The notes under the pieces were generated by a model. The model saw only the letters and a list, made by a program, of their open reading frames with translations, searched no databases and was not told where the DNA came from. This document shows positions 26,125 to 30,966 of a stretch of DNA of 64,000 bases, in pieces (within the stretch, counting starts at the first letter, position 1; every line of letters begins with the position of its first letter). The position numbers and the translations under genes were made by a program. Source of the stretch: Gammaproteobacteria bacterium (lineage in GTDB: Bacteria; Pseudomonadota; Gammaproteobacteria; Pseudomonadales; Azotimanducaceae); the NCBI GenBank assembly GCA_007694905.1, contig REEU01000127.1, positions 1 to 64,000 of the forward strand. The letters run 5' to 3'.

Positions 26125-27177
26125 TCAAACGACCGGCGGCTCGGCGTCGGACAGTTCCTCGAGCAGGTCGGACTGGAAATCTTCCAGGCCTCGAGCCACC
26201 TCGCCGAGCGCGTCGAAGCGCGCAATGTGGAACAACGCCTCGCCTTCGTTCACCAACGGGATATTGTTGCGCCCCACGAGCACACCTGCCGCGGGCGCGA
26301 CGATATCCACTTCCCCTTCCCCTTCCGGCGAACCGATGACGCCGAGCAGATCGCCCTTCCTCACGTGTGCACCAAGTGCCACGTGAGTGCGGAACACACC
26401 GTCCTGCTCCGCGCGCACCCACTGCGACGATCGTGCGATGACCGGCTCCCACTGCTGTGGTCCCGACTCACGCCTCGAGGCCGGCAGCATGTCGAGATGG
26501 CGCAGGACCCGCAGGCATCCGCGTACGCCGGCGCGGATGCAGTGTTCCTCGAAGCGCAGCGCCTCGCCGGCTTCATAGACGATGGCTGGAACGCCACGGG
26601 TCCCTGCGATGTGACGCAGAGAGCCGTCGAGGGGCGGGGACCCGAGAATCACCGGCAGACCAAAGGCGCGTGCCATGTCCGCCACGGCTTCGTCATCCAC
26701 GTCGCCGCGGACCTGCGGAAGATTGGAGCGATGAATGGCGCCCGTATGGAGGTCCACAAGATGGGTACAGTGGGCGAGCACCTCACGGGTGAACAGGCCC
26801 GCGATGCGCGCACCCAGCGAACCGCGATCGCTGCCGGGAAAGCAGCGATTGAGATCGCGTCGGTCGGGCAGGTAGCGCGACCGGTGGATGAATCCGAACA
26901 CGTTCACCACCGGTGCCGCGATGAGCGTGCCGCGCAGGCGCGTCATGGACCGGTGCTTGAGTACTCGGCGGATGATCTCGACCCCGTTGAGTTCATCCCC
27001 GTGAATGGCGGCAGTCAGCAGCAGCACGGGGCCATCCCGGCGGCCGTGGATCACCTGCAAAGGAATATTGAGTTGGGTGTGGGTATAGAGCTGCGCAGCG
27101 GGGAGTTCGGTTGCTCCACGCGCCCCGGGAGCCACCTCCAGATCACAAATGCGGAAAGCGGGTCTTCGCTGCGCCAA
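26125..27177 (-). CDS. Succinylglutamate desuccinylase / aspartoacylase family zinc enzyme
   Basis: A 350-residue AstE/AspA-type zinc carboxypeptidase-fold protein. Zinc ligands are in HGDELNG and in HLVDLHTGA; the DRRDLNRCFPG segment supplies the substrate-binding Arg residues. The C-terminal part (HVRKGDLLGVIGSPEGEGEVDIVAP) is a biotinyl-lipoyl-like beta domain. No arginine succinyltransferase genes are present, so classical AstE function is unlikely. It lies 4 nt after rimK; a role in trimming glutamate tails is an attractive inference. Confidence 0.83.
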   Translation of the reverse strand: MAQRRPAFRICDLEVAPGARGATELPAAQLYTHTQLNIPLQVIHGRRDGPVLLLTAAIHGDELNGVEIIRRVLKHRSMTRLRGTLIAAPVVNVFGFIHRSRYLPDRRDLNRCFPGSDRGSLGARIAGLFTREVLAHCTHLVDLHTGAIHRSNLPQVRGDVDDEAVADMARAFGLPVILGSPPLDGSLRHIAGTRGVPAIVYEAGEALRFEEHCIRAGVRGCLRVLRHLDMLPASRRESGPQQWEPVIARSSQWVRAEQDGVFRTHVALGAHVRKGDLLGVIGSPEGEGEVDIVAPAAGVLVGRNNIPLVNEGEALFHIARFDALGEVARGLEDFQSDLLEELSDAEPPVV

Positions 27178-27181
27178 GAGA

Positions 27182-28087
27182 TCAACCCTGACCGCGGGTC
27201 TTGGTGCGGTTCGGCTTGGCCTGCCGCTCGATGAACTCGATGATCATGCCCGCCACGTCCTGGCCGGTGGCCTGCTCGATCCCGCCGAGACCGGGGGACG
27301 AATTCACTTCCAGAACCAGCGGACCGTGATTGGAGCGGAGGATGTCGACGCCGGCGACATTCAAGCCCATGGCCCGCGCCGCACCAATGGCCGTACGACG
27401 CTCGGCGGACGTGATCTTCACCACTTCGGCGCTGCCGCCGCGGTGCAGGTTGGAACGGAACTCGCCAGGTGCACCCTGCCGCTTCATGGCCGCCACCACC
27501 TTCTCACCGACGACGAGGCAGCGAATGTCCGATCCCCCGGCCTCACGGATGAATTCCTGCACCATGATGTTCACGTTCAGGCCCATGAAGGCCTCGATGA
27601 CGCTCTTCGCCGCCTGCTTCGTCTCCGCGAGCACGACGCCGATCCCCTGCGTGCCCTCCAGCAGTTTGATCACCAGCGGTGCCCCGCCCACCATGTCGAT
27701 GAGATCCGGAATGTCATCCGGAGAATGGGCGAAGCCGGTAACCGGCAGGCCCATGCCCTTGCGGGCGAGAAGCTGCAGCGAACGCAGTTTGTCCCGGGCC
27801 CGGGTAATGGCCACCGATTCATTGACGCTGAACACGCCCATCATCTCGAACTGTCGCACCACGGCGGCACCGTAGAACGTGATCGAGGCGCCGATGCGAG
27901 GAATCACCGCGTCGACGCCAGCCAGCTCCTGACCCTTGAAATGAATCGAAGGGCGGGCCGTGGCCATGTTCATGTAACAGCGCAGCGTATCGATCACCTG
28001 TACTTCATGACCTCGCTGCTTCGCCGCCTCCGCCAGACGGCGGGTCGAATAAAGGCGTCCATTGCGGGACAGAATGCCGATTTTCAT
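27182..28087 (-). CDS. rimK: Ribosomal protein S6 L-glutamate ligase (RimK)
   Basis: A 301-residue ATP-grasp ligase that adds glutamates to the C-terminus of ribosomal protein S6. The N-terminal [18 protein letters not shown], the [17 protein letters not shown]-binding loop and the closing [13 protein letters not shown] metal-binding motif are diagnostic. The start overlaps the rimB stop (ATGA, 28084-28087), so the two are coupled. Confidence 0.93.
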
Positions 28088-28566
28088 GTGCGGGCCCGAG
28101 TCAGATAGGAGCGGGATGGATCCACCACGAAGCGGCCGCGTATAGCCGTACGGCCCAGCAACATCCGGAACAGCATGTCATCACGACTGGTGAGTGTGAT
28201 TTCCGCACGCCAGGCGTCGAGTCCGAGCTGGACCGTCGTTGCGATGACAAAGCGGCGCTCGGTGTGGCCTCCGGAATCGCGCACGTCGCGCTCGTCCACG
28301 ACAGCAGCTTCGCATATCACTTCGCGCACTGCATCGCGCTGCCGCGGATGCAGGCGGAACCTTACCCAGGGTGCGCCGTCACGCTCGAACGGAGCCAGCT
28401 CGAAGGCGTGCAGAGCGGAGGTGCGCGCACCGGTGTCCACCTTGGCCTTAATGCGGGCGATGCCGAGCTCTGGCAGGGCCACCCACTCGCGCCAACCGAT
28501 GGCTTGCAGCACCGCTCCCTCAACCCTCACCCGATGGCTCCGCTGCAGTCTCCAATCCAGCCTCAT
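28084..28566 (-). CDS. RimB/retropepsin-like ATP-dependent zinc protease family
   Basis: A 160-residue protein of the family called ATP-dependent zinc protease (DUF615-era RimB), which has a retropepsin-like fold with the motif [12 protein letters not shown] (Asp44-Thr-Gly-Ala). It is commonly paired with rimK. The ATG at 28566 follows a GGGGGCGG ribosome site and overlaps the end of mscS by 47 nt; GTG starts at 28530 or 28512 are possible. The enzymatic role is not settled; coupling to rimK suggests a part in S6 modification. Confidence 0.85.
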
Positions 28567-29365
28567 CCGCCCCCGTTGCGGGCGGCGACAGGGTGATGCG
28601 TCGATAGGGGATGTCGATTCCCGCGGCCAGCAGCGCCTGCTGCACCTCCTGGATCAGCGACGTTCTCAGCACAAAGAACTGCTCGCGCGCTGACCAGACG
28701 GAAAACTGCACACCGATACCCCACTCCTCGTAACCCAGAGGCAGGAATAGAGGTTTGGGCTCCTGCAGCGCGACCTGATTGTGGTCGGAGGTGGCACGCA
28801 GAACCTTCTCGAGCGCCTTGAGATCCTCGCGGAAGTCCACCGTCAGCTTCAGATCGAAGCGACGGATCGGAAATCGGGAAAGGGTGCGTACCCGATCCCT
28901 GAGGATGGATTCGTTGGGAATGCGCACAAAAATATTGTCGAAGGTACGCAGCTTTACCGACAGCGCGTCGATAGACAGCACTTCACCGGTGACATCACCG
29001 ACAGTGATGGTGTCGCCCACTGCGAACGGCTTCTCGCCGAGCAGGAACAGACCGCTGATCAGGTTCGACGCCGAAGTCTGGGACGCGAAACCAACGGCCA
29101 CCGTGAGAATTCCCGCAGCTCCAAGCAAAACGCCGAGATTGAAGCCAAGCTGGTGCAACGCGGTCACCAACACCAGACTGGCCAGGAACCAGAACACGCC
29201 CTTGCGCGCCAGCATCGCCAGCTGCCTGTCACCCCGCGCCAGAATCGCCTTTTCCAATGCGCGCGCCGCGAATCGCGCCAGGGTGATCCCCAGCCCGAGC
29301 ACCAGCAGCGCCCGCAGGATGCCCAGCACGTGATCAAACTCCACTGAAACGTTGCCGACTTCCAT
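28520..29365 (-). CDS. MscS-family mechanosensitive channel
   Basis: A 281-residue small-conductance mechanosensitive channel. Three membrane helices (about 12-34, 50-72, 75-97) precede the MscS beta domain with the motif [20 protein letters not shown]; the pore-helix region reads [28 protein letters not shown]. The start overlaps the stop of the preceding unknown gene by 1 nt. Its insertion between an unknown soluble protein and rimB is notable. Confidence 0.9.
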
Positions 29366-30162
29366 CAGAACAGGTTCCCATAGAAGCGACCGAGGATGCT
29401 GCTGCTGCCGCTACGGCGAGGCTTGCCCTGCTCGGTCCACGGTCCGGGTTCGACCGGAGGGGCATCACCGACTCTGATGTCACCGACCTTGCCTTCGTGA
29501 TCGCGGCGGGTGGAGAGGCTGGACGTCCACAGGCGGCCATCAGTGGACACAAACAGCGGCAGCTGTGGCACCGGCAGGACGACACGGTCGAGCATCCAAC
29601 CGTCCTTGGCCCGGTTCTCGAGCCGCAGCGGCGAGATGGCCCGCCAGGGTCGCAGCGGAACATCCTGCGCATTCGTCCGACAGTAGGTTCGCGCGGCATA
29701 ACACAGCGCGCCTTCGACCGTGGAGGAGCCGAACCAGGTCTGGGACGGGCGCATCAATGGCAGTTCACAAAGCGTCACGGCGTCCACACCCGCCTTCAAC
29801 TCCACCCATAGCGGCGTGCCCACGTAAAGCGTGACGCTGGCGTCAGGCGCGATGTTGAACGGCATGCGCGGACGGCTCACCACCGCCCGGTCAGCGAGTC
29901 GGGGTACCAGAGTCAGGCTGTCGTCGAATCCCGGGGCCTTGTAGTGGACCACGTCAGACTGGGTGTTTCCCGGCATCCATGCGATCTCGCTGGCGATTTC
30001 CAGCGGCGGGTCCTCGACTTCGTCGCGAGCATGTTCGAAGGATTGCACCAGCCAGCCGTCGTCACGTCGCGCCACGAACAGGTCGAGGGCACCGATCCGC
30101 CAGTAGCGGGCTTCGTCGATGGGAACGCGATAGCTGCCCCACCAGGTCCATTCCTGCGCCAC
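29365..30162 (-). CDS. Unknown conserved-looking soluble protein upstream of mscS
   Basis: A 265-residue protein without signal peptide or membrane helix. It is rich in aromatic residues (WTWWGSYRVP start, RYWRIGALDLFVARR) and has a mixed beta-like pattern with a Cys-containing segment CYAARTYCRTNAQD. I do not recognise it with confidence; its place next to a MscS gene recalls DUF432 proteins, which would need a profile search. It overlaps mscS by 1 nt (TGATG), implying translational coupling and a likely functional tie. Confidence 0.7.
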   Translation of the reverse strand: MAQEWTWWGSYRVPIDEARYWRIGALDLFVARRDDGWLVQSFEHARDEVEDPPLEIASEIAWMPGNTQSDVVHYKAPGFDDSLTLVPRLADRAVVSRPRMPFNIAPDASVTLYVGTPLWVELKAGVDAVTLCELPLMRPSQTWFGSSTVEGALCYAARTYCRTNAQDVPLRPWRAISPLRLENRAKDGWMLDRVVLPVPQLPLFVSTDGRLWTSSLSTRRDHEGKVGDIRVGDAPPVEPGPWTEQGKPRRSGSSSILGRFYGNLF

Positions 30163-30165
30163 GAG

Positions 30166-30966
30166 TCATCGGTCCTTCAGCAGCTGACGCCCCACCAGAC
30201 CGCCCAGCGTACGCACGACCCAACGGGGTTGCACCTGAGACCAGAATGTTCCGATCCGATTCGCGAGGCCCGGCACACGAATCACCTCACCGCGCATGCA
30301 GGCCCGATAGCCCTCGCGAGCGACACTGCGCACGCTGGAGAGCAACAGCGGCGGGATCTGAGGCAGCTCCGGGTTGAGCTGACGGACCTGTTGCGCCATG
30401 TCGGTATCCGTGACGCCCGGGCACAGCGTCGTGACGCTGACCCCGCTGCCGCGCAGCTCCTCGTTCAGCGCCTCGGACAAGGACAGCACATAGGCCTTGG
30501 TGGCCGCATAGGCAGCAAGACCGGGGACCGGCTGAAAGCCTGCCACCGAGGCCACATTGAGTATGCGACCGTAGCCACGCGCCACCATGGGCCCGAGAAA
30601 CACGTGGGTGAGCTGGGTCAGCGTGGCCACGTTGAGTTGCACCATGCGATGCAGATCGTCCGCATCGGCGTGCCGGAACGCTCCGGCTTCCAGCACCCCG
30701 GCATTGTTCACCAGGATGTCTACCTGCAGATCACGCTGGCGAACCGCCACAGCGAGTGCTCCCGCGGATCGGCGCTTGGACAGATTCATGGGGATGTGGA
30801 CGGCCCGTACGCCGTGTCGTCCGCTGAGTTCGAAGGCCAGCTCGCGCAGCTTGTCAACGCTGCGCGCCACCAGGATCAGGTCGTGGCCGTGGGCTGCGAA
30901 CTCCGCCGCCAGCGCCCGACCGATACCTGCCGACGCTCCAGTGATAAGTACCGTTTTGCCTTCCAT
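30166..30966 (-). CDS. Short-chain dehydrogenase/reductase (SDR) family oxidoreductase
   Basis: A 266-residue classical SDR. Motifs: TGASAGIG cofactor loop (residues 9-16), NNAG, the catalytic Ser in LNVASVAG, and YAATK. The C-terminal part resembles short-chain reductases of the DltE/YqjQ type. It is the first gene of a seven-gene minus-strand run (3 nt before the unknown gene). Substrate unknown. Confidence 0.87.
   Translation of the reverse strand: MEGKTVLITGASAGIGRALAAEFAAHGHDLILVARSVDKLRELAFELSGRHGVRAVHIPMNLSKRRSAGALAVAVRQRDLQVDILVNNAGVLEAGAFRHADADDLHRMVQLNVATLTQLTHVFLGPMVARGYGRILNVASVAGFQPVPGLAAYAATKAYVLSLSEALNEELRGSGVSVTTLCPGVTDTDMAQQVRQLNPELPQIPPLLLSSVRSVAREGYRACMRGEVIRVPGLANRIGTFWSQVQPRWVVRTLGGLVGRQLLKDR

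Follow-up and report, generated by a model that had tools for sequence, protein, structure and literature searches.

Why does a gene for a mechanosensitive channel share a nearly gapless run with the genes of a polyglutamate pathway? The question is raised by a 64,000-nucleotide stretch (positions 1 to 64,000 of contig REEU01000127.1, assembly GCA_007694905.1), hereafter the window, from a gammaproteobacterium of the family Azotimanducaceae. Open reading frame and profile searches of the window reveal five co-directional genes on its minus strand, in the order DUF432-like, mscS, rimB, rimK and a gene for an AstE-like zinc hydrolase. These almost certainly form two modules, rimB-rimK-AstE-like and DUF432-like/mscS. 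Our best explanation of the run, which as a whole we regard as evenly poised between right and wrong, is that a Rim polyglutamate module (RimK ligase, RimB-like endoprotease, AstE-like hydrolase) has been joined to a turgor-valve module (DUF432-like protein and MscS). The AstE-like enzyme would free glutamate from RimK-made chains or from RimB-released oligo-glutamates, much as CphZ would complete the breakdown of cyanophycin, a catalytic role suggested by sequence and by a structural model; joint expression with MscS, suggested by the gene arrangement, could be explained by the share that glutamate, its polymer and the counter-ions K+ and Mg2+ have in turgor balance. The parts are ordinary; what they suggest together is an apparently undescribed enzyme of the Rim pathway, a DUF432-like partner of MscS and a link between polyglutamate and osmotic or ionic balance.

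The five genes are packed very tightly. The DUF432-like gene (29365..30162; 265 amino acids), so named from the DUF432 matches of its family, shares base 29365 with mscS (28520..29365), a 1-nt overlap; rimB (28084..28566) overlaps rimK (27182..28087) by 4 nt (28084-28087), and a 4-nt gap (27178-27181) precedes the AstE-like gene (26125..27177), which begins with TTG. The original prediction, made from the letters of the window, had given the same five genes and order and these three junctions, all of which we recover. It had also given a 47-nt overlap between mscS and rimB, and here the arithmetic holds for an ATG at 28566 but that start codon is probably wrong. Indeed, in the closest relative (genome G005, locus L052) the equivalent ATG is followed four codons on by an in-frame TGA, and a possible start lies 13-16 codons further on in 5/5 members of the genus examined, which together make the overlap doubtful. 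Locus L037 has a TAG upstream as well, and three of the five (L035, L050 and L051) also carry an ATG 4-6 codons after that of the window. The next starts in the window itself, GTG 28530 (an 11-nt overlap with mscS) and GTG 28512 (a 7-nt gap), are the probable ones.

RimK is well over the curated cut-off of the S6--L-glutamate ligase model NF007764 (486.4 bits against 331). The retropepsin encoded by rimB exceeds the gathering score of PF05618 (141.5 bits against 27) and carries the DTG motif in KVDTGARTS; because it scores below the curated cut-off of the RimB equivalog NF052261 (143.2 bits against 200), we call it RimB-like. The channel exceeds PF00924 (68.3 bits against 20.2), yet stays under the cut-offs of the NCBIfam MscS models. 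All six genomes of the window's genus retain the cluster, and the run is therefore beyond chance: it is in one piece in the window, G001, G004 and G005, is cut at a contig end inside the DUF432-like gene in G002, and is split over two contigs in G003.

RimK is the classic enzyme modifying ribosomal protein S6. Its neighbour, the AstE-like hydrolase, belongs to the AstE/AspA superfamily (PF24827, 136.4 bits against a cut-off of 25), where it forms a RimK-associated subfamily. We rejected the AstE of the arginine succinyltransferase (AST) pathway as its identity: no NCBIfam AstE model matches at E≤0.01, AstB is absent, and the solved AstE structures rank far lower (Z 17.8-19.5) than DoeB (Z 34.4) against the AlphaFold model. 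The original prediction held that AST genes are lacking; this stands for AstB, the one AST gene searched for: the search drew a blank in the window's genome (96.7% complete) but matched both controls, E. coli and Caulobacter. The DoeB equivalog TIGR02994 scores 85.3 bits, under its curated cut-off of 402.7. The model itself has a mean predicted local distance difference test score (pLDDT) of 94, and its nearest solved folds are 3cdx (Z 35.5), DoeB, the cyanophycin dipeptide hydrolase CphZ (8eip; Z 28.2 over 299 residues at 17% identity) and, distantly, CCP5 (Z 16.0), which aligns over the catalytic domain only (model residues 1-243) and no more closely than other M14 carboxypeptidases. H59, E62, N110, R111, H144 and E202 are invariant in our alignment A4 and nearly so among 85 stretches; we take them to be the HxxE...H zinc site, the catalytic Glu and the substrate-carboxylate residues of the superfamily. 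The rim subfamily has the further invariants R150, N152, R157 and R188, and at positions 150, 152 and 157 the 3cdx and DoeB alignments show other residues.

The genomic distribution of the hydrolase follows that of RimK closely. In a class sample of 274 genomes, RimK is over its cut-off in 119, and the AstE-like protein reaches at least 345 bits in 81, of which 80 have rimK (Fisher p 6e-38), with a profile seeded from rim-linked members and a line set after a score gap was seen. Among the 85 high-scoring copies, 73 lie less than 500 nt from a rimK. Relaxing the threshold to E≤1e-60 gives 89 genomes, 82 of them with rimK over the cut-off; the seven remaining are G272, G101, G106, G201, G244, G313 and G099, and in G099 rimK is broken. 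We examined the gene order at 80 class rimK loci (L014-L033 and L054-L113), which come from 80 different genomes among the 119 with rimK and were mostly picked at the high-scoring end rather than drawn at random, and whose neighbours were labelled with profiles seeded from the window's proteins. There, rimB is linked in 69/80, the AstE-like gene in 60/80 and both in 56/80, and in 51/80 the three are immediate neighbours in the order rimB-rimK-AstE-like. Among the 60 linked AstE-like genes, those of L066 and L068 are remnants and that of L101 is broken in two; such decayed copies beside rimB-rimK suggest loss of the hydrolase while RimK stays. The original prediction had made its case depend on a conserved neighbourhood, and conserved it is: the rimB-rimK-AstE-like order is kept across the class, and mscS joins the rim genes repeatedly.

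The AstE-like hydrolase is thus a third, nearly RimK-exclusive component in a part of the rimK genomes. Very probably it acts in the RimK pathway, and as to its substrate, the chance of a glutamyl chain or dipeptide is about even. Two things favour a role on RimK products: this near-exclusive co-occurrence, and the relatedness in fold to CphZ and CCP5, whose substrates are polymer-derived dipeptides or glutamate tails. We infer that the enzyme follows RimK and RimB as an exo- or dipeptidase that releases glutamate. As an enzyme of the Rim pathway it is apparently undescribed in the open-licence literature: among titles and the beginnings of abstracts we found no paper tying rimK to an AstE-like hydrolase or to mscS, a search for rimK with succinylglutamate desuccinylase returned nothing, one for rimK with aspartoacylase returned nothing on bacteria by title, and the word desuccinylase is absent from the rim and rlo papers searched for it. 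An enzyme almost never found without RimK in this sample would offer a direct handle on the fate of the glutamate chains.

The second module is built on the DUF432-like protein, which finds no Pfam match at E≤0.01 and scores 12 bits against DUF432 (PF04254; gathering score 21). Across its family, 34 of 46 members match DUF432 weakly at E≤1, with a best E of 4.4e-5. The gene occurs in 9/58 genomes of the relatives' sample, the window's own included. In archaea, too, DUF432 may adjoin mscS. We named the best 80 of 182 DUF432-like loci, two of which (L143 and L182) come from one genome; most are from metagenome-assembled genomes (MAGs), whose organism labels may be wrong. In 76/80, across many phyla, mscS lies directly downstream, and among the other four, three stop at a contig end and the fourth has mscS about 430 nt away. 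The predicted structure is all-beta (pLDDT 85). It resembles no solved structure by Foldseek at E≤0.001, and VIA-align gives a Z of at most 3.8 in the PDB, a lack of matches that is no proof of a new fold. The whole word DUF432 is absent from the open-licence literature searched. The protein is perhaps a soluble regulator of the MscS channel, and its family, with a predicted fold unmatched in the PDB, is a candidate dedicated MscS-channel partner in many phyla.

Do the two modules belong together? Outside the window's genus, rim genes stand within 6 kb of the DUF432-like/mscS pair in 8/76 loci. In L135, L139, L142 and L188, all proteobacterial MAGs, rimB-rimK-AstE-like precedes the pair, the opposite module order to that of the window. 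L134 has rimK, the AstE-like gene and an antiporter gene before the pair, with no rimB seen there; in L171 (planctomycete label) the rim genes, and in L173 rimB and the AstE-like gene, diverge from the pair; and L190 (myxobacterial label) tightly packs the AstE-like gene, a RimK-family ligase under the S6 cut-off and the pair. L134, L135, L139, L142 and L188 form one clade with two near-copies, which leaves about four independent joined cases. Against some 0.28 joined loci expected by our own estimate of one rim cluster per genome, the tail probability is 7e-10 for eight and 2e-4 for four. On the labelled tree the joined trait changes seven times, at least four of them forced by well-supported branches, and some changes may be losses; L123 is labelled rim-linked there because its genome G003 carries the rim genes on another contig end. 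Excluded from the rim-linked loci are L130, L144 and L152 (RimK-profile scores 105, 80 and 154), and likewise L179 and L181, which have an RloA-like retropepsin only. Directly beside rim genes, mscS is also found without a DUF432-like gene in L041, L073, L104, L106 and L032. In the class sample, rimK occurs in 12 of the 15 genomes with a DUF432-like gene (p 0.0055).

The wider neighbourhood has an ionic character. When every gene near rimK in the 80 class loci was clustered without a prior list, the commonest one outside the rim genes was corA, in 18 loci (19/80 with one cut copy) within about 7 kb, against 0.33 expected by a Poisson calculation for independent genes in a genome of 2.9 Mb, with copy numbers taken from 28 rimK genomes; Pfam confirms each of the 19 frames as CorA. 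Mechanosensitive channel genes, all confirmed by Pfam, are found in 9/80 (0.98 expected on the same basis), and antiporters, TamA and TamB in 6/80 each, one to two of each being Pfam-checked. Around the DUF432-like/mscS pair (80 loci) we counted corA 23 times, rimB/rimK-type genes 14, TamB 14, TamA 13, AstE-like genes 11, antiporters 8 and MgtE 7; three loci of the window's genus are within the rim and AstE-like counts, and corA, TamA, the antiporter and MgtE were each checked in one example. The TamA/TamB outer-membrane assembly genes are near the pair in L132, L135, L142, L188 and others. The overlap of the two neighbourhoods supports a common ion and turgor theme at the level of gene content, and a link between polyglutamate chemistry and osmotic or ionic balance is supported statistically. 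The linkage of mscS and corA makes a role of polyglutamate in turgor or ion balance testable. We take the identifier K05844 to be rimK. PMC10219603 reports that brackish genomes carry genes for glutamate modification, including K05844, and a mechanosensitive channel more often than marine ones do.

Several observations weigh against our explanation. As many as 39 of the 119 rimK genomes have no high-scoring AstE-like gene, and the characterised relative with the best score, DoeB, is a deacetylase of a small molecule. The main rival for the hydrolase, which we judge rather unlikely, makes it an N-deacylase of the DoeB/aspartoacylase type: instead of cutting Glu-Glu bonds, it would take the acyl cap off an amino acid or peptide that RimK uses or makes. 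Its nearest relatives of known function, by sequence and by structure, are indeed the DoeB deacetylases, but the strict tie of the gene to RimK speaks against this rival, as do the invariant arginines after the third zinc ligand, which the DoeB and 3cdx alignments lack. As for the joining of the modules, DUF432-like and rimK are adjacent only in the window's own genome among the 12 class-sample genomes in which they co-occur, so that adjacency as a general rule is rejected for that sample, and elsewhere in the window's family the DUF432-like gene occurs in two genomes, not beside rimK. In the class loci, mscS genes near and far from rimK number 7 and 2 (p 0.09), or 7 and 4 once L022 and L027, each with a cut channel gene, are included. 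The adjacency counts would suit a chance meeting of the two modules in the genus, where they would simply be co-transcribed; we find this doubtful, as both module orders exist, the tree needs the repeated changes described above, and other types of mscS also adjoin rim genes. That the MscS link reflects an osmotic or ionic function is, in our estimate, a balanced proposition.

What the linkage would serve is a further matter. The original prediction saw in it osmotic control of ribosome modification, whereby turgor sensed with MscS/DUF432-like would shift the RimK/RimB balance on S6 and re-tune translation. Its osmotic hint gains support from the genomic linkage; control of S6 modification is one of several readings, and one that we consider quite unlikely. 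In its favour are the repeated mscS-rim linkage, the action of RimK and RimB on S6 in Pseudomonas (PMC11957791) and the S6 of the window's genome, whose tail DSDEDEE (last five residues DEDEE) is compatible with a RimK acceptor. In the family sample (30 tails, less two, one of them read in the wrong frame and the other lacking a stop within its locus), S6 ends in Glu in 6/12 genomes with rimK and 2/16 without (p 0.044), but as a test of the RimK target this signal is not repeated in the class, where among the best 110 of 262 genomes with an S6 match the proportions are 23/47 and 30/63 (p 1.0). As the tail does not track rimK there, it cannot decide between S6 and free poly-glutamate as the main product. 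Nor was a regulatory part found, although no search was aimed at one. The corA and cation/proton antiporter linkage suits a general balance of ions and solutes. The strands of corA around rimK are mixed (8 same, 11 opposite), so that a common operon does not simply account for its linkage, which weighs against our explanation. An equally fitting reading is that free poly-glutamate would be an osmotic store. In a bolder form, which we hold to be a long shot, poly-alpha-glutamate would be an osmotic buffer: RimK would polymerise glutamate into fewer particles with the same nitrogen, RimB and the AstE-like enzyme would reverse this, and MscS/DUF432-like, CorA and the cation/proton antiporters would balance ions and vent solutes. 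If this were true, S6 modification would be one branch of a glutamate-polymer turgor system.

The S6 proteins of G264 and G141 (L246 and L254), two genomes of one genus, end in seven or eight encoded glutamates, as though a RimK product were written into the gene itself; both genomes also have rimK and the AstE-like gene.

How does the two-module run compare with known systems? Like the RimABK system of Pseudomonas, which polyglutamylates RpsF, it has a RimK ligase and a RimB-like retropepsin in one operon; it differs by the addition of the AstE-like hydrolase, MscS and the DUF432-like protein, with no rimA (an EAL phosphodiesterase) among the five genes. With the Rlo system (RloA retropepsin, RloB, RloC ATP-grasp) it shares the retropepsin and ATP-grasp logic and the osmotic theme; however, RloA is secreted, whereas the window's RimB-like protein shows by eye no hydrophobic N-terminal stretch and scores higher to RimB than to RloA models. 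According to PMC11957791 and PMC12239564, RimB cuts poly-Glu and stimulates RimK, and its paralogues, the RloA proteases, are required under hypo-osmotic stress; the former reports both S6 modification and free poly-glutamate in Pseudomonas fluorescens, and the latter has the Rlo system serving hypo-osmotic tolerance in Pseudomonas aeruginosa. The cyanophycin system likewise combines an ATP-grasp-type ligase making a poly-amino acid with a terminal zinc hydrolase of the same fold (CphZ), but the polymer is another one, RimB is an aspartic protease, and the AstE-like protein is closer to DoeB and 3cdx than to CphZ. In cyanophycin turnover CphA is the ligase, CphB acts as an endo-enzyme and CphZ is thought to finish the breakdown. 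The tubulin glutamylation cycle, where TTLL enzymes are the ligases and CCP enzymes the deglutamylases, also pairs a ligase with an M14-fold metallo-enzyme, although CCP5 is distant, as set out above.

A few features around these genes remain to be described. The original prediction missed a gene for a short-chain dehydrogenase/reductase (SDR; Pfam) at 30166..30966, on the same strand and 3 nt upstream of the run; it recurs in the genus member G003 (L008), and its membership in the run is uncertain. Within the window's family there are RimK open frames of 400-470 aa that score near the cut-off, possibly longer or fused variants of RimK, and in L049 such a long frame is followed by rimB and an AstE-like gene. 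In L144 (504-7672; Nitrospirota label) an operon of the rloA-rloB-rloC type, a potassium/proton antiporter gene and the DUF432-like/mscS pair stand together; RloA and RloB are under their curated cut-offs there, and the ATP-grasp protein is over that of TIGR02291. Finally, L106 (4036-9028) brings a glutathione-synthetase-like ATP-grasp gene, corA, mscS, rimK and an AstE-like gene into one tight run.

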